From a virus, in the IMG/VR virus record IMGVR_UViG_3300032116_000668, positions 1 to 35,965 of that record: a stretch of 35,965 nt of DNA; one strand, 5' to 3'. The notes under the pieces are model-generated. The model saw only the letters and a program-made list of their open reading frames with translations, was not told the origin of the DNA and ran no database searches. Below, one piece after another: positions 14,954 through 28,601 of this stretch. Made by a program: the position numbers and the translations under genes. Position 1 is the stretch's first letter. Every line of letters starts with the position of its first letter.

Positions 14954-15124
14954 CTACGGCCTTGGAGCCTTGCAGAAGCGAATCTGTGAAAGTGTTGTTT
15001 TCACAAACGCCACGGCACGCTGCCCGCATCGTGGGCAACGCAGATACCGCTGCCGCTCGTCACCGCAAGGGCGACTGCTGCGAGTGCGGAGACGCTCACC
15101 GCATGTGCAACGTGGTTCAGCCAC
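14954..15124 (-). CDS. Small zinc-ribbon protein
   Basis: 56 aa with four cysteines arranged as C-T-C-G ... C-P-R-C-G separated by a basic linker with R-Y-L before the second pair, a short zinc ribbon. The start is GTG at 15124, which overlaps the protease stop as GTGGCTGA, the same arrangement as ATGGCTGA at the far-left gene. It ends 47 nt before the capsid start. Similar to small DNA- or RNA-binding zinc-finger phage proteins (Com-like or regulator-like); function unknown. An upstream in-frame ATG at 15253 would overlap the protease gene by 137 nt and is unlikely. Confidence 0.6.
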   Translation of the reverse strand: MAEPRCTCGERLRTRSSRPCGDERQRYLRCPRCGQRAVAFVKTTLSQIRFCKAPRP

Positions 15125-15785
15125 TGCGAAGCCTGAGAAGGGCAGACCAGGCGGCAGCGACGCCCCGCAGAGCCGAACGCGAGTGAACCGCCTGGGCTGC
15201 CGGCTCTTCGGTGGCCTGCGATGCAAGCCACGCTTCGTACGAACGCTGTGCAACAGTGACGCTGCTTGCCGGATAGGCAGGCGTCAGAACCACGGAAACG
15301 TCTACGAGCGAACTGACTTCCCGCACTTCTCTTACCGCACCTTGCTCGTCGCTCGTCCACCTGTCGCCCTTGCCGGGCTCAAGGCCGAACGCGAAACTGC
15401 TGCCCTTGAGGTCGCGGCGACGAACCAGCTCAAGGGTGTCGCGGCCCACCTGCGTATCCGGCGGAACGACGGTATACCGCAGCCCCTTGTCATCGCTGGT
15501 GAGCTCCAGCGTGCCGCTGGCTGAGCGGCCGAGAATCAGGTCTGGGTTGTGATTCAGCAACGCCACAACGTCGCTCTTGCCACGCTGGCGATTGAGCACT
15601 TTATCGAATGCACCGGGCAGAATGATCTCGCGGAACTGCGAGCCACCTTCACGCAGCGGAAGGCTGAAGCGGTTGTAGACGGCGGCATAGCCCGTCAGCA
15701 CCTGCGTGCCGTTGGCACGAGTCTCAATCGTGAGCTCGGCTTCTGGGCACTCGTCAAACGCAAGGCAGCGGCGCTCAAGTTCCAT
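15117..15785 (-). CDS. Prohead protease (HK97 family, U35)
   Basis: 222 aa. Catalytic candidates: H79 in LLNHNPDLILGR and S129/S130 in LKGSSFAF, followed by the conserved L-V-D-V-S-V-V-L-T-P-A-Y-P segment. This serine protease trims the capsid delta domain and destroys itself during maturation. The ATG at 15785 follows GGAGG and overlaps the portal stop by 11 nt; the longer in-frame extension upstream lies within portal and is not used. The standard order portal, protease, capsid is kept. Confidence 0.9.
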   Translation of the reverse strand: MELERRCLAFDECPEAELTIETRANGTQVLTGYAAVYNRFSLPLREGGSQFREIILPGAFDKVLNRQRGKSDVVALLNHNPDLILGRSASGTLELTSDDKGLRYTVVPPDTQVGRDTLELVRRRDLKGSSFAFGLEPGKGDRWTSDEQGAVREVREVSSLVDVSVVLTPAYPASSVTVAQRSYEAWLASQATEEPAAQAVHSRSALRGVAAAWSALLRLRSG

Positions 15786-17070
15786 CGGGTGTGTCCTCCT
15801 GCTCGGCCTGGTCTTCGGCGTCATCTTCTGGGCTTGTCTCGTCTTCCACGGCTGGCTGCTCGGGAATCGACTCTGGTGCAGGCGGCTCTTGGCCAACCTT
15901 GTCCAGCGTTGTCATGTTCTGCTGAATGAAGTGCTTGTCGCCTTCTGGCCCGATTGGGTTCAGGTTCTCTAACTCTCTCACTTCGTTAATCGTCATGTAG
16001 CCATTGGCCAGGGCTGACGCATAGAACGCCGAGCGGCTCGCGTGGTCGCCTCGGAGCATTCCGCTCACTGAGTGCTCGGCGAAATACCGCTCGTCATCCA
16101 CAATCAGATCGCGGGCAATCGCCGCTTCCCACCGCTTGAGATGCGGGAGAAGGCAGTGCTGCACAAACTCTGTGCCCTGCACTTCAATGTTGCTGTAGGT
16201 GCTGCGGGTGAGATCCTGCACCATGTGCGGCGGCACGCGGAACGCCCGGCAAATCTCAATCACCTGATATTGGCGAGTCTCAAGGAACTGGGCGGCCTCG
16301 TTGCTGCCGCTGAGCTCGTGAGCCTTCACGCCGTTAGGCAGCACGGCGGTACGAAACGCACGGTCGCTGCCGCGGTGCATCCGCTCCCACTGCTCACGCA
16401 GACGCTCGGCCGCTTCTGCCGGGATTGGGTTGTCAGACTCCAGCACGATGCCGGGCCGGGCACCGTTGCCGAAATATGTTGAGCCGTGAGTCTCCAACGC
16501 TTGAGCCAGCCCGATGGCGTTCTGAAAAATGCGGTACGTAGGGATCGGCGTGACGCCGTCTTCAGTCGTGAACCGCAAGCAGAAAATCTGCTCCTGGCTG
16601 TAGATCGTCTCGCGCCCGTTTGGCTCGCGGTACTTGTACCGCACGCTGCCGTTCTCAAGCCGCTCGGGCGTCATCCGGCTGGAGTGCAGCGGCCACAACT
16701 CAGAGACTGCACCACGAGCACCTGGGCGAATCTCGGCGTAAGACGCGCCAAAATGCAGGTACATCCCAGTCATCCAGTCGCGGAACTCTTGGGCCGTCTG
16801 CCACGGATTGGGCTGCATGTGCAACAGCCGATATATCGGGTGGCTCGTGGCCTTGGCCTTGCCGCCGTTGGCCAGCCGCTCAAACACATGCAGCGGAAGC
16901 GATGAGACGGCATCCGAGATGACGCGAATGCACGCCGTGTAGGCCGAGCACGCCATGGAGTTGTCAGCCGTCACGCGAATGCCAGACGGCGTGCGGCTGC
17001 TGCTCACGTCTGGCCAGTCGATACCGCGAAGGTCAATCATGCGGAAGTCTTGGCTGGCGGTTTCGCTCAT
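15775..17070 (-). CDS. Portal protein (HK97 family)
   Basis: 431 aa. ATG at 17070 sits in an ATGA overlap with the large terminase stop. Typical HK97-type portal features: N-terminal A-C-I-R-V-I-S-D-A-V-S-S-L-P-L-H-V, N-P-W-Q-T near 90, a G-x-S-Y-A-E-I strand, then R-V-P-P-H-M-V-Q-D near 295 and L-P-H-L-K-R-W-E. The C-terminal 40 residues are an acidic E/D-rich tail. It forms the dodecameric DNA channel at one capsid vertex and docks terminase. Confidence 0.92.
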   Translation of the reverse strand: MSETASQDFRMIDLRGIDWPDVSSSRTPSGIRVTADNSMACSAYTACIRVISDAVSSLPLHVFERLANGGKAKATSHPIYRLLHMQPNPWQTAQEFRDWMTGMYLHFGASYAEIRPGARGAVSELWPLHSSRMTPERLENGSVRYKYREPNGRETIYSQEQIFCLRFTTEDGVTPIPTYRIFQNAIGLAQALETHGSTYFGNGARPGIVLESDNPIPAEAAERLREQWERMHRGSDRAFRTAVLPNGVKAHELSGSNEAAQFLETRQYQVIEICRAFRVPPHMVQDLTRSTYSNIEVQGTEFVQHCLLPHLKRWEAAIARDLIVDDERYFAEHSVSGMLRGDHASRSAFYASALANGYMTINEVRELENLNPIGPEGDKHFIQQNMTTLDKVGQEPPAPESIPEQPAVEDETSPEDDAEDQAEQEDTPDGT

Positions 17071-18632
17071 AGCGTCATGATGTCCCAAGACTGTTCCGGC
17101 TTCGGTGCTGTTTCCGCCTGCCATAGGCCGATGGCCATCACCAGGCTGACGATGCCGTCGATGCGTTCTGTGCTCTTCGCCTTGCTCGGTTTGATGTTGC
17201 CTGCCGCGCTGTCCTGCTGAATGGCGACGTTGGAAGCCTGCCAGCCGAGCACGGGGTGTGCTCCGTGCAGCAGCTTGCCGGCCACAACCCAGTTCTCCAG
17301 CTGCTTGCTTGGAGCCGAGAGCGAGCCGTAGCCCTGCCGAAAGTCTCGCATGGGCAACCCGTCGCCTTGCAGTTGCTGTCCCAGTTGCGCCGAGTTCCAC
17401 GGGTCCAATCCGATGGCACGCACGCGGTACTTGCTGGCAATGGCGTTGATGTCAGCACGCACCTGATCAAAGTCGGTGACGTTGCCATCAGTCATGCTCA
17501 AGTGGCCCTGCCGCTGCCACGTCAGATACGGCACCTTGTCGCGTCGCTCGCGCTGGTGGGCGTTTTCGCTTGGTATCCAAAAATGCGGCTGCACCCAAAA
17601 CGTGCCATCGTCTAGCGGGAAGAGCAGCACCAGGGCCGTGGTGTCAAACGTCGTGGCTAGGTCGAGCCCGCCCCAGCACTCGCGCCCCGCGAGATCCACA
17701 GGGCATGGCTTGTCGCCTTGCAGCCAGTGATCCATCCGCAGCCACCTAGTTGACTGTTCCGTCCATTGGTTCAAGTACAGCTGGCGGAAAGTGTTTTCAT
17801 ACGTGGGCATTTCCACGGCACGAGCGCATTCGCTCCGCAGGAAATCCATACGCACGGAAACGCCGAGATTGGGGTTGGCCTGCTCCCACGTCTTTTCCGA
17901 TTTCCAATCGGCTTCAATCGGTGCCGCGTAGATGGCCGGCAGAAACGTCTTGTCTTTCACCGTGCCGGCGGCAACGGCCTCAGCGTATTTCCAGATTTCC
18001 CAGCAGACGCTTTTGCGGTCAAAGCCTGCCGTGGTGAGCGCCACCGTCAGCGGCTGCCGCCGAGCACCCTGGCTGCTAAGCATCACCTCCCACATTTCCC
18101 GGTTGGAAACGTGGAGCTCGTCAAAGATGACGCCGTGAGCCGAGAGCCCATGTTGAATACCGGCCTCCGCGCTTAACGCCTTGTACGTTCCGTGCGTTGC
18201 CTCTCGCACGATCGCGTTGCGGTACACCTTGAGATGCTGCCGAAGCACGGGCGACTGCTCGACGTAGACGCGGGCCATATCGAAGACGAGCCGAGCCTGA
18301 TCCCGCGAGGCCGCACACGAATAGACTTCACAGCCGGGCTCGTTCTCCATCAGCAGCTTGAGTGCGATTCCCGCACATAGGCTGCTCTTGCCATTCTTGC
18401 GCGGAATCGCCAGCAGGCTGGTGCGTACTTTGCGAGCGCCGCCCTCAGTGGCGAAGAGCTTTCGCACGTAGTCCTGCTGCCACGGCTCAAGCGTGAACGG
18501 CTTGCCGCCGAGCTCGCCCTTGGCGTGCGTCAGGTGCTTGTGGAAGAACCGCACCGCCAAGCACGATGAGCAAGTTTCGCACGGGTGCTCAAGCGAACAT
18601 GCGGGCGTCTTCGTCGTCTTCTTGCGGGCCAT
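17067..18632 (-). CDS. terL: Terminase large subunit
   Basis: 521 aa DNA-packaging motor. ATPase: Walker A-like PRKNGKSS (77-84), Walker B VIFDE (168-172). Nuclease: D324 (GGLDLA), D410 (GLDPWN) and D492 (RIDGIVSL), three acidic residues of the RNase H-like metal site. The N-terminus is unusual in having four cysteines, C12, C18, C21, C24, that could hold a metal. ATG at 18632 overlaps the small terminase by 44 nt with only a weak GGCGG upstream. With the HNH gene nearby, a cos-type packaging system of the HK97 kind is likely. Confidence 0.95.
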   Translation of the reverse strand: MARKKTTKTPACSLEHPCETCSSCLAVRFFHKHLTHAKGELGGKPFTLEPWQQDYVRKLFATEGGARKVRTSLLAIPRKNGKSSLCAGIALKLLMENEPGCEVYSCAASRDQARLVFDMARVYVEQSPVLRQHLKVYRNAIVREATHGTYKALSAEAGIQHGLSAHGVIFDELHVSNREMWEVMLSSQGARRQPLTVALTTAGFDRKSVCWEIWKYAEAVAAGTVKDKTFLPAIYAAPIEADWKSEKTWEQANPNLGVSVRMDFLRSECARAVEMPTYENTFRQLYLNQWTEQSTRWLRMDHWLQGDKPCPVDLAGRECWGGLDLATTFDTTALVLLFPLDDGTFWVQPHFWIPSENAHQRERRDKVPYLTWQRQGHLSMTDGNVTDFDQVRADINAIASKYRVRAIGLDPWNSAQLGQQLQGDGLPMRDFRQGYGSLSAPSKQLENWVVAGKLLHGAHPVLGWQASNVAIQQDSAAGNIKPSKAKSTERIDGIVSLVMAIGLWQAETAPKPEQSWDIMTL

Positions 18633-19047
18633 TCTCTACCGCCGAGACTCGGGCCAGGGCAGACGCCGTTAGGCCAAACTCAGACGCGAACTTGAGCATC
18701 TGATTGCGAGCGTCCCGCTTTCGATTCCACGCAGGGTGATTGCTTACCCTACCCTTGTCGTCCATGAACGTGGCCCCGTTGGCCTTGAGTTCACGGTCAG
18801 CTTCGATCATGTCAGCGAGCGAGTCGCAGTAGGCCGCCAGCGTCTGCTGATGCCTTGGGCTCATGACTTTGGACGCCTCAAGCATGGGAAGGATTCGCTG
18901 CCACTCCTCGCGGGCCAGATCCGACAGCCAATGCGGTGACGGCGGCAGTCCCGGTTCAGCGTCGATGCCAGACTTGTGCGGCCCCCTAACGCGAGCGCCG
19001 CGAAGCTTAAGTAAAGGTTTAGGCGTCGGCTTGCGGCCCTTGCCCAT
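18589..19047 (-). CDS. terS: Terminase small subunit (P27 family)
   Basis: 152 aa. The opening G-K-G-R-K-P-T-P, the P-x-W-L-S-D-L-A-R-E-E-W-Q-R-I motif and later A-A-Y-C-D-S-L-A-D and N-H-P-A-W-N-R-K-R-D-A are those of the P27-type small terminase (Terminase_4). It recognises the packaging site and hands DNA to the large subunit. The ATG at 19047 has GGGAG upstream. Acidic C-terminal tail, as usual for interaction with the large subunit. Confidence 0.9.
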   Translation of the reverse strand: MGKGRKPTPKPLLKLRGARVRGPHKSGIDAEPGLPPSPHWLSDLAREEWQRILPMLEASKVMSPRHQQTLAAYCDSLADMIEADRELKANGATFMDDKGRVSNHPAWNRKRDARNQMLKFASEFGLTASALARVSAVENGPQEDDEDARMFA

Positions 19048-19101
19048 TTCTAAACTCCCAATTTCGGCCCTGCCTACACCTGCAGGAACATCGGGTTTTC
19101 C

Positions 19102-19437
19102 TCAGACGGCCCCGTAGCGATCCGACCCACCCTCCCCGCCGCGCCGCTCGTCGTTCGTCTTTCGGCAGTGGCACGACACGCACCGTGCCGCACCGTTGGT
19201 CACGTCATACCGTCGCTCAGGTGCCACGCTCACAGGCTGGACGTGGTCTGCGTGCATCTCTCGCCCATAGGCCACGCGGCCGCAGTCAACGCATTGCCAG
19301 TGGCATCGGTCCAGTACCGCTTGCCTCCACGCCTTGTGAGCGGCTGAGCAATAGCCACGGGCTGCCGCGTGAGGTCTAGCCTCGCGTGAGCGTGGCCCGG
19401 TACGCAGCGGCCTATGGCTGGGGATCTTGGTTGGCAT
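19102..19437 (-). CDS. HNH endonuclease, terminase-associated
   Basis: 111 aa. Two C-x2-C pairs (C49/C52 and C86/C89) hold a structural zinc around an HNH core: H62-A-D64-H65, N81 (TNGAARC) and H90. Basic N-terminal 40 residues. HNH enzymes next to terminase genes in HK97-like phages work with terminase to cut cohesive ends, so this is probably a packaging nuclease and not a homing enzyme. ATG at 19437 shares its A with the previous stop (TGATG). A cos site is expected nearby but was not identified. Confidence 0.85.
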   Translation of the reverse strand: MPTKIPSHRPLRTGPRSREARPHAAARGYCSAAHKAWRQAVLDRCHWQCVDCGRVAYGREMHADHVQPVSVAPERRYDVTNGAARCVSCHCRKTNDERRGGEGGSDRYGAV

Positions 19438-19793
19438 CAGCTCTTGAACATCACGACGCCTGCCGTGCCGGTGCTGTTCGTGGTGGCCGAGACGATCTTG
19501 AGGTACTCGGTGCCAAAGACTTCATCGGGCAGGGCATAGGCTCGCCCATCCGTGCTCGAGGCAGCCAGGGCGAGATCAGCCACGCTGCCGTCGCTCTTGT
19601 AGAGACGGCGGAACGTACCAGTAGGGGCGGTGCCTACCCACATCTGGAGCGTGCTGGCGTTCGTGCTCATGGTGCCAAACGACACGACAGCACCAGCCAC
19701 GTCACGCATGTCCAGCGTGGTGGCGGATGCCGTGGCCGTGGTGAGCGTGATGTCGAGATCGCGTGCCTTGCGGCTCAGAATGTTGTCGGCCAT
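19437..19793 (-). CDS. Hypothetical structural protein
   Basis: 118 aa, rich in A, S, T and V, predicted all-beta, with no charged catalytic cluster. ATG at 19793 with AGGAGA 6 nt upstream. The pattern (L-D-I-T-L-T-T-A-T-A-S, then Y-K-S-D-G, ending G-V-V-M-F) looks like a small capsid decoration, head fibre or receptor-binding stem domain. It lies upstream of the HNH/terminase genes beside the LamG-like gene, which also suggests a virion surface role. Not recognised as a named family. Confidence 0.55.
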   Translation of the reverse strand: MADNILSRKARDLDITLTTATASATTLDMRDVAGAVVSFGTMSTNASTLQMWVGTAPTGTFRRLYKSDGSVADLALAASSTDGRAYALPDEVFGTEYLKIVSATTNSTGTAGVVMFKS

Positions 19794-20841: not shown

Positions 20842-21084
20842 TTAGTTCTCCTGCGTCTCGCGGGCTTGCGGCTGAAGTGCGTACAGCAAACGTGTCTGCT
20901 CGCTCACGGCCCTACTGATCTCGCGCTGCGTCTCGCTGAGTGACTTCACGAACGCACGATGCTCCTCAACGAGGGGCAGCAAAACATCGGCGCGGAGCAC
21001 CCAACCGCAAGCAATTGCGACCAAAGTGGGAAAACCCCACCGCTCAATGATGCCGTATAGCGTGTCCCTGGCGGCCTCAGTCAT
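20842..21084 (-). CDS. Small membrane protein, holin-like candidate
   Basis: 80 aa with one membrane segment at about residues 17-30 (GFPTLVAIACGWVL) followed by a charged helix of about 45 residues. The ATG at 21084 overlaps the upstream stop as ATGACTGA. Size, one membrane helix and a charged C-terminus fit class III-type holins or small phage membrane proteins. Next to another one-helix protein, a small lipoprotein and a peptidase, which together look like a lysis group. Function not proven. Confidence 0.55.
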   Translation of the reverse strand: MTEAARDTLYGIIERWGFPTLVAIACGWVLRADVLLPLVEEHRAFVKSLSETQREISRAVSEQTRLLYALQPQARETQEN

Positions 21085-21424
21085 TGGCTCGTGCCTCCCT
21101 GACAAGTAGACGCATGTGGCTGCGGTTCTCGCCTGTCTCCATCCACCACCGCACAAGGATCTTGACGATCTCCTGCACTAGGGCTGAGAAGATCAGCAGC
21201 GTGAGAAAGCCCATCTGCATATCCGCACGCACGGAACGCTCTACAGTCCGCGTGTAGTACTTGGCCACTACGGCCGTCTCGCCCTCGTCGCACTGCTCGA
21301 GCACCGGCACAGGCCAGCCAGAGACGGCACGCCTGACGATGCGATTGGCGAGGCGTCGCCCGGCCATACGCTGAACCGTTGGCAGGCGATCCCACACGTG
21401 CGACTCAAGATCAGGCAGCGTCAT
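21077..21424 (-). CDS. Membrane protein near peptidase
   Basis: 115 aa. The ATG at 21424 is in an ATGA overlap with the small lipoprotein gene. A basic N-terminal half leads to one hydrophobic segment near residues 72-90 (MGFLTLLIFSALVQ) with a basic aromatic end. It probably spans the inner membrane once. Candidate holin partner or antiholin; other membrane roles are possible. Confidence 0.55.
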   Translation of the reverse strand: MTLPDLESHVWDRLPTVQRMAGRRLANRIVRRAVSGWPVPVLEQCDEGETAVVAKYYTRTVERSVRADMQMGFLTLLIFSALVQEIVKILVRWWMETGENRSHMRLLVREARAND

Positions 21425-21660
21425 TTCTTCCCCGTTCCTTTGCAGACAGGGCAAGGCAGCACGATACGGCCGTCACCAATCTTCCCGGTGCCGTCGCAGT
21501 TCTCGCACTTGTCGGTGGCTGGCGTCGGTGCAATCTCTTGCCGCAACTGCGTCACCATGCGGGCAGTCTCGCAAGCCATGTCAGCCGATACGCCGTGATC
21601 GTCAGGCAGGGTGGCCACGCACCCAATGACAACAACGAGCAGGCAGAGCAGAAACCTCAC
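21421..21660 (-). CDS. Small lipoprotein with CxxCxGxG motif
   Basis: 79 aa. Starts with GTG at 21660 in a GTGA overlap with the peptidase gene. Residues 1-14 (MRFLLCLLVVVIGC) form a lipoprotein signal with lipobox V-I-G-C; the mature chain starts at C14. Near the end are C-E-N-C-D-G-T-G and C-P-V-C-K-G-T-G, a DnaJ-like zinc hairpin pair with 10 residues between. A phage-encoded lipoprotein translationally coupled to a peptidase could act like a spanin or lysis-linked factor, or coat the cell after infection. No close family recognised. Confidence 0.65.
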   Translation of the reverse strand: MRFLLCLLVVVIGCVATLPDDHGVSADMACETARMVTQLRQEIAPTPATDKCENCDGTGKIGDGRIVLPCPVCKGTGKK

Positions 21661-22577
21661 AGCACACCTCGCAGCCAGTTGTCAGGCATCGACGTTGGCT
21701 TGAAGCCGCTGTACCCGGCGTAGACGTAGGAATCACGACCGCTCAGCATTTTCGTGGCAACGTTGGCATCGACCCAGAATGAGCACTTGCGGACGGCATC
21801 CGGCATCGTCTCGGGGAAGTGCTTTCCAACCGTGTTGGAGTCGCCCCACGAGTTGGCACAGAGCAGGCCAGGACGCTTGCCAAACCGCACGCCGATAAAG
21901 CACATGCAGTGCCACCAGACGCCACCCGGCTTGCAGAAGCCGTCAGCGTCGCGGCTCATGCTGAAGCCCTGGCCGCTGCACGGCACGACCGGGTAGCCGT
22001 TGCTGATCGCTGCTGCGGCCTCTTCAAACGTGGTGGCTAGGGTTGTCTCGCTGCAGCGACGCTCTTTGGCAAACCGCTCAAGCACGTCAGGCACGCCATT
22101 GCGGCCCCAGTCGCGTTCCCGCTGGCTGCTGTGCTTCTCAATCACAGTCCCGCCGTAGTCCACGCCGTAGTGCAGGGCACCGTAGTCGCGGATGCTCTTG
22201 GCTGCGTGGAAGCCTGTGCTGCCGTCGCCGCCCGTGTTGACCTTGAGGCCACGGCTTTCCACGCGGCTATACCCGTACAGGCTCGCCTCGATCGTGCGGC
22301 CGTTCCACGCTTCCGGCTCTTTTCGCCAATGGATGTCGCAGGCTGCAAGCACGTCCACGGCCAGGCTCGCGCCCCAGCCAACGCACGAGCCCACGCTGCC
22401 CTGAGAGCCTCGACGCCACGACGGCATGCACTGAAGCAGGGCCGGGTACAGCATCACGTCTTGATCAGCGGCCTTGAGATCAGGCCCGGCTGACGCGAGC
22501 GTTGGGTGTGGCAGCGTGGCCACGAACGCCTCAGAGCCTTCTGGGTCGGGCACATAGCCCATGCCGTGCTCGGTCAT
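21657..22577 (-). CDS. Papain-like C1 cysteine peptidase
   Basis: 306 aa. Papain-family active site is intact: oxyanion Q59 and nucleophile C65 in GSQGSVGSCVGWG, H223 in WWHCMCF, N242 in CANSWG followed by W244. No signal peptide, so export would need a holin or virion delivery. It is flanked by membrane protein genes and a lipoprotein gene, and no muramidase or amidase was recognised elsewhere, so it may be the lytic enzyme, cutting protein or peptide links in the envelope. Alternative roles are virion maturation or anti-host proteolysis. ATG at 22577 after a G-rich tract. Confidence 0.85.
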   Translation of the reverse strand: MTEHGMGYVPDPEGSEAFVATLPHPTLASAGPDLKAADQDVMLYPALLQCMPSWRRGSQGSVGSCVGWGASLAVDVLAACDIHWRKEPEAWNGRTIEASLYGYSRVESRGLKVNTGGDGSTGFHAAKSIRDYGALHYGVDYGGTVIEKHSSQRERDWGRNGVPDVLERFAKERRCSETTLATTFEEAAAAISNGYPVVPCSGQGFSMSRDADGFCKPGGVWWHCMCFIGVRFGKRPGLLCANSWGDSNTVGKHFPETMPDAVRKCSFWVDANVATKMLSGRDSYVYAGYSGFKPTSMPDNWLRGVL

Positions 22578-22580
22578 GGC

Positions 22581-23189
22581 TCAGCCCCCGTTTAAGCCGG
22601 CCCACGCCACGGCCTTAGCAAACGCTGCGTAACGGCTTCTCATGTCTGCCGTGACCGAAACCACGTCAGTGCCAACGGCTTGCCCGTAGGCGGCCTCCAC
22701 GGCCTCCCTGAGCCCTGCCACAGAGCCCGGCGCGTGCTGACCAATGCGACGCCACGCGATCTCTATGGCCAGCGTTGTGAACATCCGCAGCGAGCGGGTA
22801 TCAGTGAACACGACTTCGGTAGTCACGGCGTCGCCGGCCACGACGGTGGCGGCCTTGTTCCACGTCTGAGCCCATAGCATCCGGTCGCCCATTGGTAGCG
22901 ACTTCAGAGCGTCGGCCACGGGCTTCACCAGCTGCTGCATCTCCACGCTCGGCGTCTCCACGTCCACGGTTACGGTTGGAGCGGCCGGCAGCTTCGGCAC
23001 GGGCAGCTTGCCCCATGCCGCCGCAATCAAGAGCAGGGCGGCGGCGATCCGGCCGATGGTGGCACGCTCGGCGTAGGCGGCTTCGGAGGCCTTAGTGACC
23101 CAGCCGGCGAGCTTGTCCCAATACGGGGCGGCCAAGAGAGCAAACGCCGCCACCACGGCTGCGATGCGTATGACGCTTTCATCACTCAC
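22581..23189 (-). CDS. Two-helix membrane protein
   Basis: 202 aa. GTG at 23189 overlaps the preceding stop as GTGA and has GGAGG 7 nt upstream; the longer in-frame ATG at 23219 is inside the previous gene. Two hydrophobic segments at about 6-22 and 43-60 (IGRIAAALLLIAAAWG) are followed by a long soluble domain. It could be a holin-type protein with an extended C-terminal domain or a membrane anchor for lysis. No family recognised. Confidence 0.6.
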   Translation of the reverse strand: MSDESVIRIAAVVAAFALLAAPYWDKLAGWVTKASEAAYAERATIGRIAAALLLIAAAWGKLPVPKLPAAPTVTVDVETPSVEMQQLVKPVADALKSLPMGDRMLWAQTWNKAATVVAGDAVTTEVVFTDTRSLRMFTTLAIEIAWRRIGQHAPGSVAGLREAVEAAYGQAVGTDVVSVTADMRSRYAAFAKAVAWAGLNGG

Positions 23190-23488
23190 CTGGCGGCCTC
23201 CACCTGGAGCAGCGCCCAACGCACGAGCGACTCACCTTGCGGCGTGCGGATGATGTCACCCAGAAGCCTGACGAGCTGATCGTCAGCCTTGGCGTCAGTC
23301 TTGGACGCCAGCCATTCGGCGGCCTCGGCCACGATGATGGACTTTTTGTACGGGTCCGACTCATTGACGAGCCGCTGGCCGTATCCGATGAGCGGCGACC
23401 ACGCCTGCAGAAGGGCAATCTGCTGCCAGATATTGAGCCCTGCACCGTACTGCTCGAGCTCGGCCGGCGTCGCTTCGTATGACGGCAT
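23186..23488 (-). CDS. Hypothetical helical protein
   Basis: 100 aa, soluble and helical, starting M-P-S-Y-E-A-T-P-A-E-L-E-Q-Y-G and containing W-Q-Q-I-A-L-L-Q-A-W-S-P-L. ATG at 23488 with AGGAGA about 8 nt upstream; that ribosome site lies against a hairpin (see 23498-23522). First gene of the membrane-protein/peptidase group. Function unknown. Confidence 0.6.
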   Translation of the reverse strand: MPSYEATPAELEQYGAGLNIWQQIALLQAWSPLIGYGQRLVNESDPYKKSIIVAEAAEWLASKTDAKADDQLVRLLGDIIRTPQGESLVRWALLQVEAAR

Positions 23489-23541: not shown

Positions 23542-23901
23542 CTACTCAGGTTCAAAGGCGTTTTCGATCTGCTCACGGGCCTCGTCATCAAGTTCAATCC
23601 GCTTGAGAATGAACGGCTGCGGCTTCGTGACTCGCCGGTCGTATTCGGTGTCCTGGCTCCACGTCGCTTGTATGCGTACGCAGGCGGCCTTGATCTCTCG
23701 CGGCGTCGGATCTCGCTGGCGAACCGGCTTAAACCGTAGCCGCCTGTCGTTTCGCAGGGGCAGTTCCCACACGTCACGCAGGCGGATGACTTGGTCCTTG
23801 GAAATCGTCCAACGCTCACAGAGTGCGGCGATGGGTAGGTTCAGTACCCAATCGGCACGAAACGCCGTGACGCTGATGGTGGCGGTTATTCCGCGTGGCA
23901 T
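23542..23901 (-). CDS. Helix-turn-helix protein with DPTPxEI motif
   Basis: 119 aa. Residues 22-50 (A-A-L-C-E-R-W-T-I-S-K-D-Q-V-I-R-L-R) look like a helix-turn-helix; then basic L-R-N-D-R-R-L-R, then R-D-P-T-P-R-E-I-K-A-A-C and a W-S-x-x-x-E helix. A matching DPTPEEI stretch occurs in the double-HTH protein at 26934-27389, so the two may belong to one regulator class. ATG at 23901 overlaps the glycosyltransferase gene by 16 nt. Probable DNA-binding regulator; targets unknown. Candidate late-gene regulator because it precedes the lysis and virion genes. Confidence 0.65.
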   Translation of the reverse strand: MPRGITATISVTAFRADWVLNLPIAALCERWTISKDQVIRLRDVWELPLRNDRRLRFKPVRQRDPTPREIKAACVRIQATWSQDTEYDRRVTKPQPFILKRIELDDEAREQIENAFEPE

Positions 23902-24758
23902 GGCTCAGGCAGCCAGCTCATGATGGTTCGCATGGCAGGGCAGAGGTACAAGTGCTGCCCAGTTGCTCGAGCGATGCTGCGATGGAACGGCACATGCTCG
24001 CAGTCTGCGGTGCCGTCGTATGTGCCTTTCAGAAACGCTTCCGTGCGATAGATGGCCATGCCGCCGAACGCCGATGAGACAAGCACAGGCGGCGAGCCAA
24101 CAGGCGGCAGCCATGTGTAGCCGAATCCGCCGTACCCATTTTGGTACGTGTCGTAGTCGCAGTCGGCCTGGCCTACGCCACGCAAGGCCCAAAGGTCGTA
24201 GTGGTGCCACTGCGGCCCGTTGCCGAAGTCGTACTGAAACAGGCTGACGCTTGCCATGCCGTACGCACCGGGCAACTCAACGAGCCAGCCGAGCCCGCTC
24301 AGCAAGCCTTGGTGGTTCCAGCCGCCCCAAGCGTCCCAGTCAATGACGCAAACGTAGTCGGCATCCGGTGAGCACGCCCGTACCCATCGCTGGCATGAGT
24401 CTCGGTATTCCGCCAGGGCGATGGTGCGTCGGCCGGCGAACTCGGCACCGTGCTGCTCACGGCCAAGAATCTGGTAATGAAACGTCGCCTGCGGCTTCTC
24501 TCGGCAGTAATTGTGCAGCACGTCTAGCGTCGCGTCTTCGCAGTCGTTGCTCTCTATGTGCAGCGACCACGAGCCGCAAAGATCCTGCAACTTCTCAAGC
24601 AGGCCAAGGTTCTGAGCGAGTCGCACGGCACAGTTGCGTGCCAGCCCAACGAAAGCCACCTTGCTGTTTCGCAGGCGGGCTAAGCCTTCCTCTGCACGCT
24701 GTAGGTAGCTATCGGTAAACGGCTCGTCAGGCTGCCAGAGTCGTGCGGGGATAATCAT
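23886..24758 (-). CDS. GT-A-type glycosyltransferase
   Basis: 290 aa. ATG at 24758 is in an ATGA overlap with the GT2 gene and follows GGAGG. The opening region has V-A-F-V-G-L-A-R-N-C-A and a repeated E-S-N-D-C-E-D-A-T-L-D strand; D140-x-D142 (VCVIDWD) is the metal-binding motif, followed by aromatic acceptor-site segments (W-H-H-Y-D-L-W-A). The pattern is near CMT1-like / GT69-type alpha-mannosyltransferases, but this is not certain. No membrane segment. Paired with the GT2 enzyme upstream, it may modify host surface sugars, phage DNA or virion proteins. Confidence 0.75.
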   Translation of the reverse strand: MIIPARLWQPDEPFTDSYLQRAEEGLARLRNSKVAFVGLARNCAVRLAQNLGLLEKLQDLCGSWSLHIESNDCEDATLDVLHNYCREKPQATFHYQILGREQHGAEFAGRRTIALAEYRDSCQRWVRACSPDADYVCVIDWDAWGGWNHQGLLSGLGWLVELPGAYGMASVSLFQYDFGNGPQWHHYDLWALRGVGQADCDYDTYQNGYGGFGYTWLPPVGSPPVLVSSAFGGMAIYRTEAFLKGTYDGTADCEHVPFHRSIARATGQHLYLCPAMRTIMSWLPEPCHAE

Positions 24759-25525
24759 GCGACCTCCACATAGCAACGCTTGCGGGCCATGCCCTTAATC
24801 GTCTCGCGGTCCAGCCCCGCGTATTCCATCCACGCCACGGCGTGCATTCCCATGGTGCGGTAATCGTCATCTGTCCAATCGGGATTGCGTCCGTAGCTTC
24901 GCTCTCGCACGGTGAGCCCAGCACCCTTGGCATGAACGTACGCAGCCCCAAAGAGACACGCCACGGTGCCATAACCCACGCTGTCCATCAGCGGGCCAAG
25001 CGACTCCCAACTCATCCGCCACAGCCAATGCACCATATCGCGGCGTAGTGACGAGCCAATGCCGCTCTCGATCAGATTCGACGGCCCACGCACGCGAGCA
25101 CGCACCTCATCGGCGGATCTGTAGCCGTAGAACTCGCTCATGTGCCAGTGGGTAAACCGTCCAAACTCGTCAAAGGCGTCTGCGTCAGTGAAAACAACTG
25201 GGGCATGAGCATTGCGGCGAACCGCCTCAACCGCAGCAGGGTAGAGCCAGTCATCGGCGGCCAGCCCAATAACGTGATTGCTGGTTAGCGATAGCCAAAC
25301 GTCGCGCTGTGCCGCGTTGTGGTCCTTGGACTTCTCTGGGTGCCGCACGTACTGAACATGCGGATGGCTCTTCTGCCATTGCTGAACGACGCTGTACGTG
25401 GCATCCGTGCTGGCATCGTCCACAACGACAATCTCGTCAGCACCGCCAACGCATGCTGAACCAAGAGCACGGCCGAGCGTGCTGGCCATGTTCCACGTCG
25501 GAATAACGACGGCCACTGTGCTCAC
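24755..25525 (-). CDS. Family 2 glycosyltransferase
   Basis: 256 aa GT2 enzyme: V-V-I-P-T-W-N near residue 6-12, D-D-A-S-T (36-40) for the nucleotide, A-D-D (90-92) as the metal motif in GLAADDWLYP, then a W-x-x-D-D-Y segment near 215. It would move a sugar from a nucleotide donor to an unknown acceptor. Start is GTG at 25525 in a GTGA overlap with RusA; Shine-Dalgarno is weak, so it is probably translationally coupled. No transmembrane helices, which makes a cytoplasmic target more likely than O-antigen polymer export. Confidence 0.85.
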   Translation of the reverse strand: MSTVAVVIPTWNMASTLGRALGSACVGGADEIVVVDDASTDATYSVVQQWQKSHPHVQYVRHPEKSKDHNAAQRDVWLSLTSNHVIGLAADDWLYPAAVEAVRRNAHAPVVFTDADAFDEFGRFTHWHMSEFYGYRSADEVRARVRGPSNLIESGIGSSLRRDMVHWLWRMSWESLGPLMDSVGYGTVACLFGAAYVHAKGAGLTVRERSYGRNPDWTDDDYRTMGMHAVAWMEYAGLDRETIKGMARKRCYVEVA

Positions 25526-25923: not shown

Positions 25924-26229
25924 TCACCGATAGCGGATGACGGCGAACCAGCGACGGGCCACGGGCGAGTAGGCAACGCCTTCTTCGACAATGACACGCT
26001 GCCCGAAGAAGCAGCAGTTGCGCCTAGCGGCCTCAGGCGTCGAGCCGGTGCCGATGCCCTCGCACTGGCCGCAGCTGCTGTGAACCAGCGAGCCACGGCG
26101 AGCAATAACGACGGCGTGATCCTGGGCGCTGATCACAGAGCCACGACGAGCCACCACGGTGGTATCGGCGCGAGCCGAGACGGCGCAGGCCACGAACAAA
26201 CAAACGAGCATAGCAATCAAGAAACGCAT
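25924..26229 (-). CDS. Secreted small Cys-motif protein
   Basis: 101 aa. Residues 1-21 (MRFLIAMLVCLFVACAVSARA) are a Sec signal peptide with a likely cleavage after A-R-A. The mature part has paired V-V-A-R-R-G-S-V / V-V-I-A-R-R-G-S-L repeats, then C-G-Q-C-E-G-I-G-T-G and C-C-F-F-G, possibly disulfide or metal-linked. ATG at 26229 follows AGGAGG. A phage-encoded exported protein may alter the host surface (superinfection exclusion) or help lysis. Resembles small exported proteins I associate with planctomycetes; family not named. Confidence 0.65.
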   Translation of the reverse strand: MRFLIAMLVCLFVACAVSARADTTVVARRGSVISAQDHAVVIARRGSLVHSSCGQCEGIGTGSTPEAARRNCCFFGQRVIVEEGVAYSPVARRWFAVIRYR

Positions 26230-26937: not shown

Positions 26938-27389
26938 GCCAATCCCCTTGGCTGGCAAATCCCATTCCGCCACTTGCTCACCTTGCTGTGCGTGCTGCAC
27001 GCAGGCTCTTTCCGCCGCTCAGCAAAGTGCCGCTCTCGGCACTCTCTGGCCCGCTCGGCAATCTCCTCTGGCGTCGGATCGTCTAGCGGCATCTTGCGTA
27101 TAGGCTCGCGCGGCGGCAGATTGTGCTGCTTCACCAGCATGGTGACGGTGGACGCCGAGCAACCAAGCTGTATCCCGATTTCTGTCAGCGTCAGCCCCTG
27201 CTGCCACAACGCAAGCAGCTGCTCGCGGTCCACTCGCTTTGCGTGCGTGCCGCTTGCCACCTTGTGGCCGTTCAAGATCCGCCACACCGTGGAACGAGCC
27301 GAGCCAATACGCTCGGCAATCTCGTCCACGGTGACGCCGTAGGCGTACAGGCGGTGTACGTGCTCGTAGTCGTACGTCCTCGTCCTCAT
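26934..27389 (-). CDS. Double helix-turn-helix regulator
   Basis: 151 aa with two resolvase-like HTH units: G-V-T-V-D-E-I-A-E-R-I-G-S-A-R-S-T-V (about 18-36) and G-L-T-L-T-E-I-G-I-Q-L-G-C-S-A-S-T-V (about 65-82). Then comes D-D-P-T-P-E-E-I-A-E-R and a basic R-E-C-R-E-R-H tail. Likely a DNA-binding regulator of the phage; also reminiscent of small recombinase C-terminal HTH or GcrA-like domains. ATG at 27389 in an ATGA overlap with dnaN and GGAGG upstream. It is the strongest candidate regulator of the operon along with the LexA-type protein. Confidence 0.75.
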   Translation of the reverse strand: MRTRTYDYEHVHRLYAYGVTVDEIAERIGSARSTVWRILNGHKVASGTHAKRVDREQLLALWQQGLTLTEIGIQLGCSASTVTMLVKQHNLPPREPIRKMPLDDPTPEEIAERARECRERHFAERRKEPACSTHSKVSKWRNGICQPRGLA

Positions 27390-28492
27390 GCGTCCTCCGC
27401 CAGCGGCATGATGACGCCCGTGTACGGGCCACAGCGAAGCAGCACGCGACTCTGAGCGTCTTTGACGTACACGTCAACGTGCGGCTCTTCGTCCTGCGGC
27501 AGATGAGCCAAGAACTGAGCCAGATACTTCGGGTCCAGCTTCGTCGGTGCCGTCGAGCCAGCCGCAATCGTCGGGCAGATCACGGCGCTTTCGCCGTACT
27601 CGCTCGAGCGGCCAGCCAGGTGCAGCGTGTTTGCCGTCCACGCCAGCGTGATGCCCTTGGACTGCTCACTGGTGACGATGGCAGCGGACTGCACCGCCTG
27701 GAGCAGCTCCACCACGTCGATCACCGTGGCCTCGCCTTCGGGCTCACCGACAACGTCACGCCAGCGTGGGAACTTGCCTTCCACAAGCCGGCCCGTGACG
27801 GTGCAGCCGTCAAGGCTGAACCGAACTTCCTTGGCGTTGGCTTCGATTTGCACCGAGCCGTCACCGCTGGCCATGCTGGCCACGGCAGCCATGAGCCTGC
27901 CAGGAATGATCGTCTGCGAATCGTCCACCGCCTGGTCCGTCTCGGTTTCGACGCACGCGAGCCGGCGGCCGTCAGTCGCAACCCAGGTAGGGTTGCCGTC
28001 CTTCACGTCGATGAGCACGCCACCCAGTGCATAGCGGCTGCTCTCGTTGTCCGTCGCGTAGATGGTCGCCTTCGCGGCCCGGCTGAACTGATCCGCCGGC
28101 AGACGGCAGACGGCCTTGAGCTCGCCTGCCTCCCACGTCGGGTACTCAGCAACGTCCTCAGTCGGCAGCGTCCACGAGCCAGCACCGCACTTCACGACGA
28201 TGCTGCTGCCGCTTGGCTTCAGCACCACCTCGTCGCCGGTCGCGGCCCGCAGAATCGCAGACAGACGATGAGCCGGCAGCAGCATAGGCTCGCCGTGGTA
28301 GTCGATCTCCCGGTCGATCCGCACTTCGAGGTCCGTGCCGCTGAGCAGCCCGTCACCAAGCCTGACGTTTTGCAGCACCGGCTTGGCGCTCTTCGACGGC
28401 ACGGCACGCATCACGTCCGCAAGTGCGGCCCTCAGCGTTGCAGTGTCCAGCGTGATTCCCGTGCTCTTCCGTTCTTTCGTTGCAGTAGCCAT
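27386..28492 (-). CDS. dnaN: DNA polymerase III beta subunit (sliding clamp)
   Basis: 368 aa, about the normal length for a bacterial beta clamp. Signature strands and turns: A-T-D-N-E-S-S-R-Y-A-L-G-G-V near 150, V-A-T-D-G-R-R-L-A near 175, E-G-K-F-P-R-W-R near 240 and C-terminal Y-T-G-V-I-M-P-L. Forms a ring on DNA that keeps polymerase attached. No phage polymerase was found in the window, so it probably recruits host polymerase III or competes with the host clamp. ATG at 28492 with AAAGGA. Host-derived acquisition is possible. Confidence 0.92.
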   Translation of the reverse strand: MATATKERKSTGITLDTATLRAALADVMRAVPSKSAKPVLQNVRLGDGLLSGTDLEVRIDREIDYHGEPMLLPAHRLSAILRAATGDEVVLKPSGSSIVVKCGAGSWTLPTEDVAEYPTWEAGELKAVCRLPADQFSRAAKATIYATDNESSRYALGGVLIDVKDGNPTWVATDGRRLACVETETDQAVDDSQTIIPGRLMAAVASMASGDGSVQIEANAKEVRFSLDGCTVTGRLVEGKFPRWRDVVGEPEGEATVIDVVELLQAVQSAAIVTSEQSKGITLAWTANTLHLAGRSSEYGESAVICPTIAAGSTAPTKLDPKYLAQFLAHLPQDEEPHVDVYVKDAQSRVLLRCGPYTGVIMPLAEDA

Positions 28493-28601
28493 GTGATTCC
28501 TTTCGTGGCTTCAAAGATGCACCAACCAAAATGCCCAAGGCGAACGTCGCCGCAAGCAAGAACTCACCAATCGCAATCCACACAACGTCGGAGATGCTCA
28601 T
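28353..28601 (-). CDS. Small membrane protein overlapping dnaN
   Basis: 82 aa. ATG at 28601 is in an ATGA overlap with the preceding gene. One membrane segment at residues 6-27 (VVWIAIGEFLLAATFALGIL), then K-P-R-K and a long tail that overlaps dnaN in another frame by 140 nt. The coupled start and the clear hydrophobic helix fill the 105-nt gap before dnaN, so at least the N-terminal part looks coding. The overlapping tail is of uncertain value; a frameshift in sequence is possible. Confidence 0.5.
   Translation of the reverse strand: MSISDVVWIAIGEFLLAATFALGILVGASLKPRKESHGYCNERTEEHGNHAGHCNAEGRTCGRDACRAVEERQAGAAKRQAW

Follow-up and report, generated by a model that had tools for sequence, protein, structure and literature searches.

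A C1A-like cysteine peptidase in a conserved block of membrane-protein and lipoprotein genes forms a candidate lysis cassette of an uncultured tailed phage group

In phages with the HK97-type gene order, the lysis genes are commonly located ahead of the HNH and small terminase (TerS) genes. Holin-endolysin-spanin cassettes of HK97/lambda-like phages are compact, translationally coupled blocks upstream of HNH-TerS-TerL, in which a lipobox lipoprotein accompanies small membrane proteins and a soluble hydrolase without an export signal. Lipoprotein genes are uncommon in phages and offer the strongest clue to spanins, in which a lipoprotein with the lipobox consensus [LVI][ASTVI][GAS]C and a short Pro-rich chain is found beside membrane proteins (PMC6139136). 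Cysteine peptidases of the broad papain-like superfamily are used in lysis as well: CHAP, NlpC/P60 and the N-terminal peptidases of mycobacteriophage LysA. The C1A papain family, which contains the cathepsins and the bacterial Xylellain (PDB 3ois), shows a Gln-Cys-His-Asn site, an NSWG motif and a catalytic Cys that opens the central helix. In a survey of papain-like families, the muralytic NlpC/P60 and CHAP fall in another cluster (PMC10318531), and the main text of a survey of viral lytic proteins does not mention papain (PMC12596118).

The window analysed here, 35,965 bases long, is a whole IMG/VR virus record from a phage known from environmental DNA alone. Between 20842 and 23488, on the minus strand, it shows a block of six genes in the order g100, TM212, papain-like peptidase, lipoprotein (LPP), TM125 and TM104. 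The first gene, g100 (23186-23488, -), encodes a 100-aa soluble protein, and TM212 (22581-23189, -; start GTG at 23189) a 202-aa membrane protein. The peptidase gene (21657-22577, -) encodes 306 aa and is followed by LPP (21421-21660, -; start GTG at 21660), a small lipoprotein with a VIGC lipobox and two CxxC motifs. TM125 (21077-21424, -; start ATG at 21424) encodes 115 aa, of which the N-terminal part is soluble and the C-terminal part has one transmembrane segment, and TM104 (20842-21084, -; start ATG at 21084) encodes an 80-aa holin-like or i-spanin-like protein. Neighbouring genes overlap by 4-8 nt in NTGA-type junctions, with the exception of the 3-nt gap between TM212 and the peptidase gene: the g100 stop overlaps the GTG start of TM212, LPP overlaps the peptidase stop with GTGA, and the TM125/LPP and TM104/TM125 overlaps are both ATGA. 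The coordinates, genes, minus-strand order and coupled lipoprotein given by an earlier sequence-only reading of this DNA were correct, and the start sites of TM212, TM125 and TM104 were moved. That reading had also placed three membrane proteins and a lipoprotein around the peptidase; hydrophobicity scans show the hydrophobic segments of all four, and VIGC fits the spanin lipobox consensus. LPP is the sole lipobox lipoprotein noted in the window, and most of the hydrophobic window proteins are also in the block. Just two further window proteins have a hydrophobic segment, in both cases N-terminal; they are small membrane proteins encoded at 25924-26229 and 28353-28601 (-).

The peptidase has the residues Q59, C65, H223 and N242 as first proposed, and they are invariant in 19 relatives. 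Among 139 distinct homologues, Q, C and H are each kept in 139/139 sequences and N in 138/139, with the Gln located 5-6 residues ahead of the Cys in all 139, and the Gln-Cys-His-Asn set persists even in versions that are 24-28% identical. The dN/dS of 0.10-0.15 indicates purifying selection and, together with this conservation, rules out a chance ORF. The single sequence has no match in Pfam, PHROGs or PDB sequences, and none to Pfam Peptidase_C1 (PF00112) even at E 10; a 38-sequence profile against the PDB gave mainly cathepsins, as weak matches (E 0.008 and up). Structure prediction, one of the checks proposed with the sequence-only reading, gave a cathepsin/Xylellain (C1A) fold. The AlphaFold2 model, based on an alignment of 38 diverse sequences, shows a pLDDT of 87 and a pTM of 0.88 (an earlier model from 19 close sequences was poor, with a pLDDT of 53), and places the catalytic Cys where the long helix begins. 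Foldseek ranks Xylellain and cathepsins B, L and S as its best solved relatives (E 6e-9 to 1e-6), and among the 50 PDB matches listed all 50 are C1A peptidases. A GG(D)G segment ahead of a helix resembles the papain GG motif. Site, NSWG motif, Cys position and fold are therefore those of C1A peptidases, whereas the phage protein is about 12-19% identical to them, lacks a Peptidase_C1 match, shows neither a hydrophobic N-terminus nor an obvious inhibitory propeptide, and sits in a membrane-protein cassette. Sequence and model together describe it as an active-looking C1A-fold enzyme outside Pfam's Peptidase_C1. It differs from the papain-fold endolysins of the same superfamily in its Asn-containing tetrad, its C1A topology and the lack of an attached cell-wall-binding domain. 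Viral models related by Foldseek include some annotated as N acetylmuramidase, Peptidoglycan binding-like and mycobacteriophage Lysin A, which suggests that papain-like domains occur in lysins; this comparison was made with the first, poorer model and rests on annotations, and some of the matches are weak, the LysA models being among the weaker ones.

The other block proteins are less readily classified. The g100 gene is directly upstream of TM212 in most relatives and has no confident Pfam or PHROG match. TM212 shows one or two N-terminal hydrophobic segments followed by a conserved C-terminal domain of about 135 aa, probably on the periplasmic side, with W106, W110, K112 and W146-R148 invariant in the alignment; it has no match in Pfam, PHROG or the PDB. 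In LPP, a consensus or near-consensus lipobox and the residues C52, C55, C70 and C73 are kept in 17 aligned sequences. The CxxC pair resembles half of a DnaJ zinc-binding domain, with weak matches to DnaJ, Anti-TRAP and phrog_3931, and this zinc-ribbon-like pair, in place of a short Pro-rich chain, would be unusual in a spanin. In the divergent clade of L438 (4079-4372), the LPP homologue retains the Cys-rich motif but seems to lack the lipobox, and a lipid anchor may therefore not be common to all members. TM125 has a hydrophobic segment in all members and is fast-evolving or exchanged between relatives. TM104 contains one weak N-proximal transmembrane segment and a charged helical tail of about 45 aa, shorter than is typical of i-spanins, and no clear i-spanin whose periplasmic part forms a long coiled coil is seen. 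In some relatives its slot holds a divergent variant, which matches an Rz-like PHROG weakly (E 0.14). A possible resemblance of TM104 to BhlA-like holins finds no support in Pfam. In other phages, the TM104 variant adjoins genes for a phosphoesterase, a kinase and fibres, and no lysin can be recognised in the vicinity. Three of these phages (L412, 4255-4542; L420, 4033-4323; L434, 4694-4981) contain a small protein with the HExxH-like motif HECLHxLYPTVSEEHITESARDL, encoded a few genes upstream and adjoining a calcineurin-like phosphoesterase gene; it is possibly a small metallopeptidase.

Relatives of the peptidase are numerous in viral contigs: 94 were found in a first scan and at least 547 with a broader profile. 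No match was found in 50,697 records of deposited phages. Among 81 loci, made up of the window and the first 80 relatives, LPP and TM125 each occur in 80, TM104 in 77 and TM212 in 71. Since this set was picked by the peptidase, the comparison was repeated with flanking-gene baits blind to it; the counts that follow are not all of independent viruses, since some loci come from the same contig cut differently, and the contigs, classed as linear, may be incomplete. With TM104 and TM212 as baits, 140 new loci were found: 127 contain the peptidase, and the contigs of the other 13 begin inside or after its slot. The bait g118, an unrelated protein encoded upstream of the HNH gene, gave 56 new loci: 36 contain the peptidase, and 20 stop short of the slot, in four cases after some extra genes. 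A divergent TM125 bait gave seven new loci, and all seven show the full order g100-TM212-peptidase-LPP-TM125-TM104. Wherever a contig spans the slot, the peptidase is recovered, which argues that the co-conservation is not an artefact of the query. The six-gene order persists down to 24-28% peptidase identity, and the comparison of gene order with relatives that had been proposed as a check thus finds the order kept, also by the peptidase-blind scans.

Downstream of the block are LamG/fibre-like genes, HNH, TerS, TerL, portal, S78 prohead protease and major capsid protein (MCP) genes. HNH endonuclease, small terminase and large terminase (17067-19437, -) were assigned by PHROG matches and follow an HK97-like packaging order. 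The g118 gene (19437-19793, -), just upstream of the HNH gene, encodes a small protein without PHROG match, conserved across at least 311 viral loci and well suited as a marker for these phages. The block stays intact while TerL identity drops from 94% to 34%: two relatives (L014 and L015) show a peptidase 92% identical with a TerL of 37-44%, another (L051) shows a peptidase 78% identical with a TerL of 92%, and a 63-kb contig with an SU10-like portal has the same block. By these sequence comparisons, the block behaves as an exchangeable module.

We interpret the block as a holin-dependent lysis cassette with the C1A-like peptidase as its envelope-degrading enzyme, and give this reading a probability of about 0.6. 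It is suggested by the usual lysis position of the block, next to HNH-TerS-TerL-portal-S78-MCP, by the strict linkage seen with peptidase-blind baits and the modular exchange, by the clustering of membrane proteins and lipoprotein, by the absence of any other recognisable muralytic enzyme, by the active-site conservation and purifying selection of the peptidase, and by the papain-like domains of its lysin-annotated Foldseek relatives. The sequence-only reading had proposed such a cassette, and position, co-conservation, exchange and clustering strengthen that part; its substrate of proteins or cross-link peptides and not glycans finds no support, and the protein-rich envelope of the host is speculation. 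In the proposed mechanism, the phage would be an HK97-type tailed phage, and a temperate one, as an integrase in the window suggests. The peptidase, which was said to lack a signal peptide and indeed shows no hydrophobic N-terminus in the hydrophobicity scan, would, lacking an export signal, accumulate in the cytoplasm and need a hole in the inner membrane. TM104 and/or TM125 would be the holin that opens it; TM104 is a candidate by its weak transmembrane segment, charged tail and exchangeable variants. The peptidase could then reach the periplasm and cut a stress-bearing layer, either peptide cross-links of the wall or envelope and wall-anchoring proteins, and LPP with a membrane partner might help to disrupt the outer membrane in spanin fashion, the lipobox suggesting a diderm host and an outer-membrane role. 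A further step, which we consider improbable, is that lysis in this widespread, uncultured group depends on a genuine protein-cutting enzyme of cathepsin type in place of a peptidoglycan hydrolase; if true, host envelope integrity would rest on protein cross-links or wall-anchoring proteins.

Other lysins were sought throughout. The claim that the window contains no lysozyme, amidase or transglycosylase holds within the sensitivity of the tools: a Pfam scan of most window proteins, including the tape measure and distal tail proteins in which a cryptic domain might have been expected, gave no muralytic domain, and a PHROG scan of the block and main structural proteins gave no muralytic match. 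In six-frame family searches, Phage_lysozyme (PF00959) is absent from 31 relatives other than the window, Amidase_2, SLT and over-cut-off M15_4 from 37 records, M23 from 44, and GH108 and CHAP from 26, the last three sets including the window. A below-threshold M15_4 match in one relative (G029; 12.9 bits over 26 residues) was taken as chance. Pfam scans of two sets of representative ORFs from 15 relatives listed no muralytic family for the smaller set of 38 ORFs, and none among the first 25 of 48 families for the larger set of 143. Against the lysis-cassette reading, the fold has its nearest relatives in protein-cleaving cathepsins and not in the NlpC/P60-CHAP branch, which is known to act on peptidoglycan, TM104, TM125 and TM212 have no significant Pfam or PHROG match to known holin families and no block membrane protein matches a known spanin family, and four flanking-gene baits found no relative with a recognised endolysin in the slot of the peptidase. 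The block thus shares its layout with the HK97/lambda-like cassettes and differs from them in lacking a recognised muralytic domain and known holin or spanin families, and in its C1A-like hydrolase.

The main and most serious rival is that the true wall enzyme is TM212, with a signal-anchored periplasmic domain of novel muralytic fold, or some other phage protein that escaped recognition, and that the peptidase has an accessory role, either in activating, releasing or protecting this enzyme or in degrading envelope proteins. TM212 adjoins the peptidase in nearly every relative, its hydrophobic anchor or anchors and its conserved domain with invariant Trp, Arg and Lys make a SAR-endolysin-like layout conceivable, and the absence of a family match does not mean that it is inactive. 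However, it shows no recognisable catalytic signature or profile match and varies more than the peptidase (42-60% identity where the peptidase has about 70-86%), and we regard this rival as unlikely. Quite improbable is an anti-host or superinfection factor, in which the peptidase would cut defence, receptor or envelope proteins and the membrane proteins and lipoprotein would alter the cell surface: the C1A fold is typical of protein endopeptidases, lipoproteins can act in superinfection exclusion and a glycosyltransferase gene lies just upstream of the block, but such genes are usually accessory and patchy, whereas the block is present in every informative relative and adjoins packaging or fibre genes, and no second lysis cassette can be recognised. 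Least probable is a virion protein acting as an assembly or entry protease, an alternative of the sequence-only reading that a LamG/virion-protein-like gene directly after the block would favour and that is weakened by the separate Peptidase_S78 gene (15117-15896, -; Pfam E 1.1e-39), which leaves the papain-like peptidase unneeded for head maturation and its prohead protease role rejected, and by a peptidase chained to small membrane proteins and a lipoprotein, not to structural genes, and kept with them when structural modules change.

If the lysis-cassette reading is true, a C1A-like peptidase would join the catalytic types for tailed-phage lysis in at least about 550 environmental viral contigs, supplying a new class of lytic enzyme to examine and a recognisable lysis marker for these phages and bearing on host envelope chemistry, and the functions of the TM212, TM125, TM104 and CxxC lipoprotein families would become directly testable.

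Two scans of GTDB genomes for a host gave no relative, and two large contigs (G049 and G050) show no recognisable host flank. Just upstream of the block, the region 23886-25525 (-) contains a GT2 glycosyltransferase gene and a second conserved gene, the latter common to 39 of the first 81 loci. A phage-encoded DNA polymerase III beta clamp (27386-28492, -) is conserved in many relatives. The 73-kb contig of L395, which includes loci L447-L450, seemingly contains two structural gene sets and a repeated ORF (15940-16545 and 63493-64098), and is perhaps two phages or a chimeric assembly.
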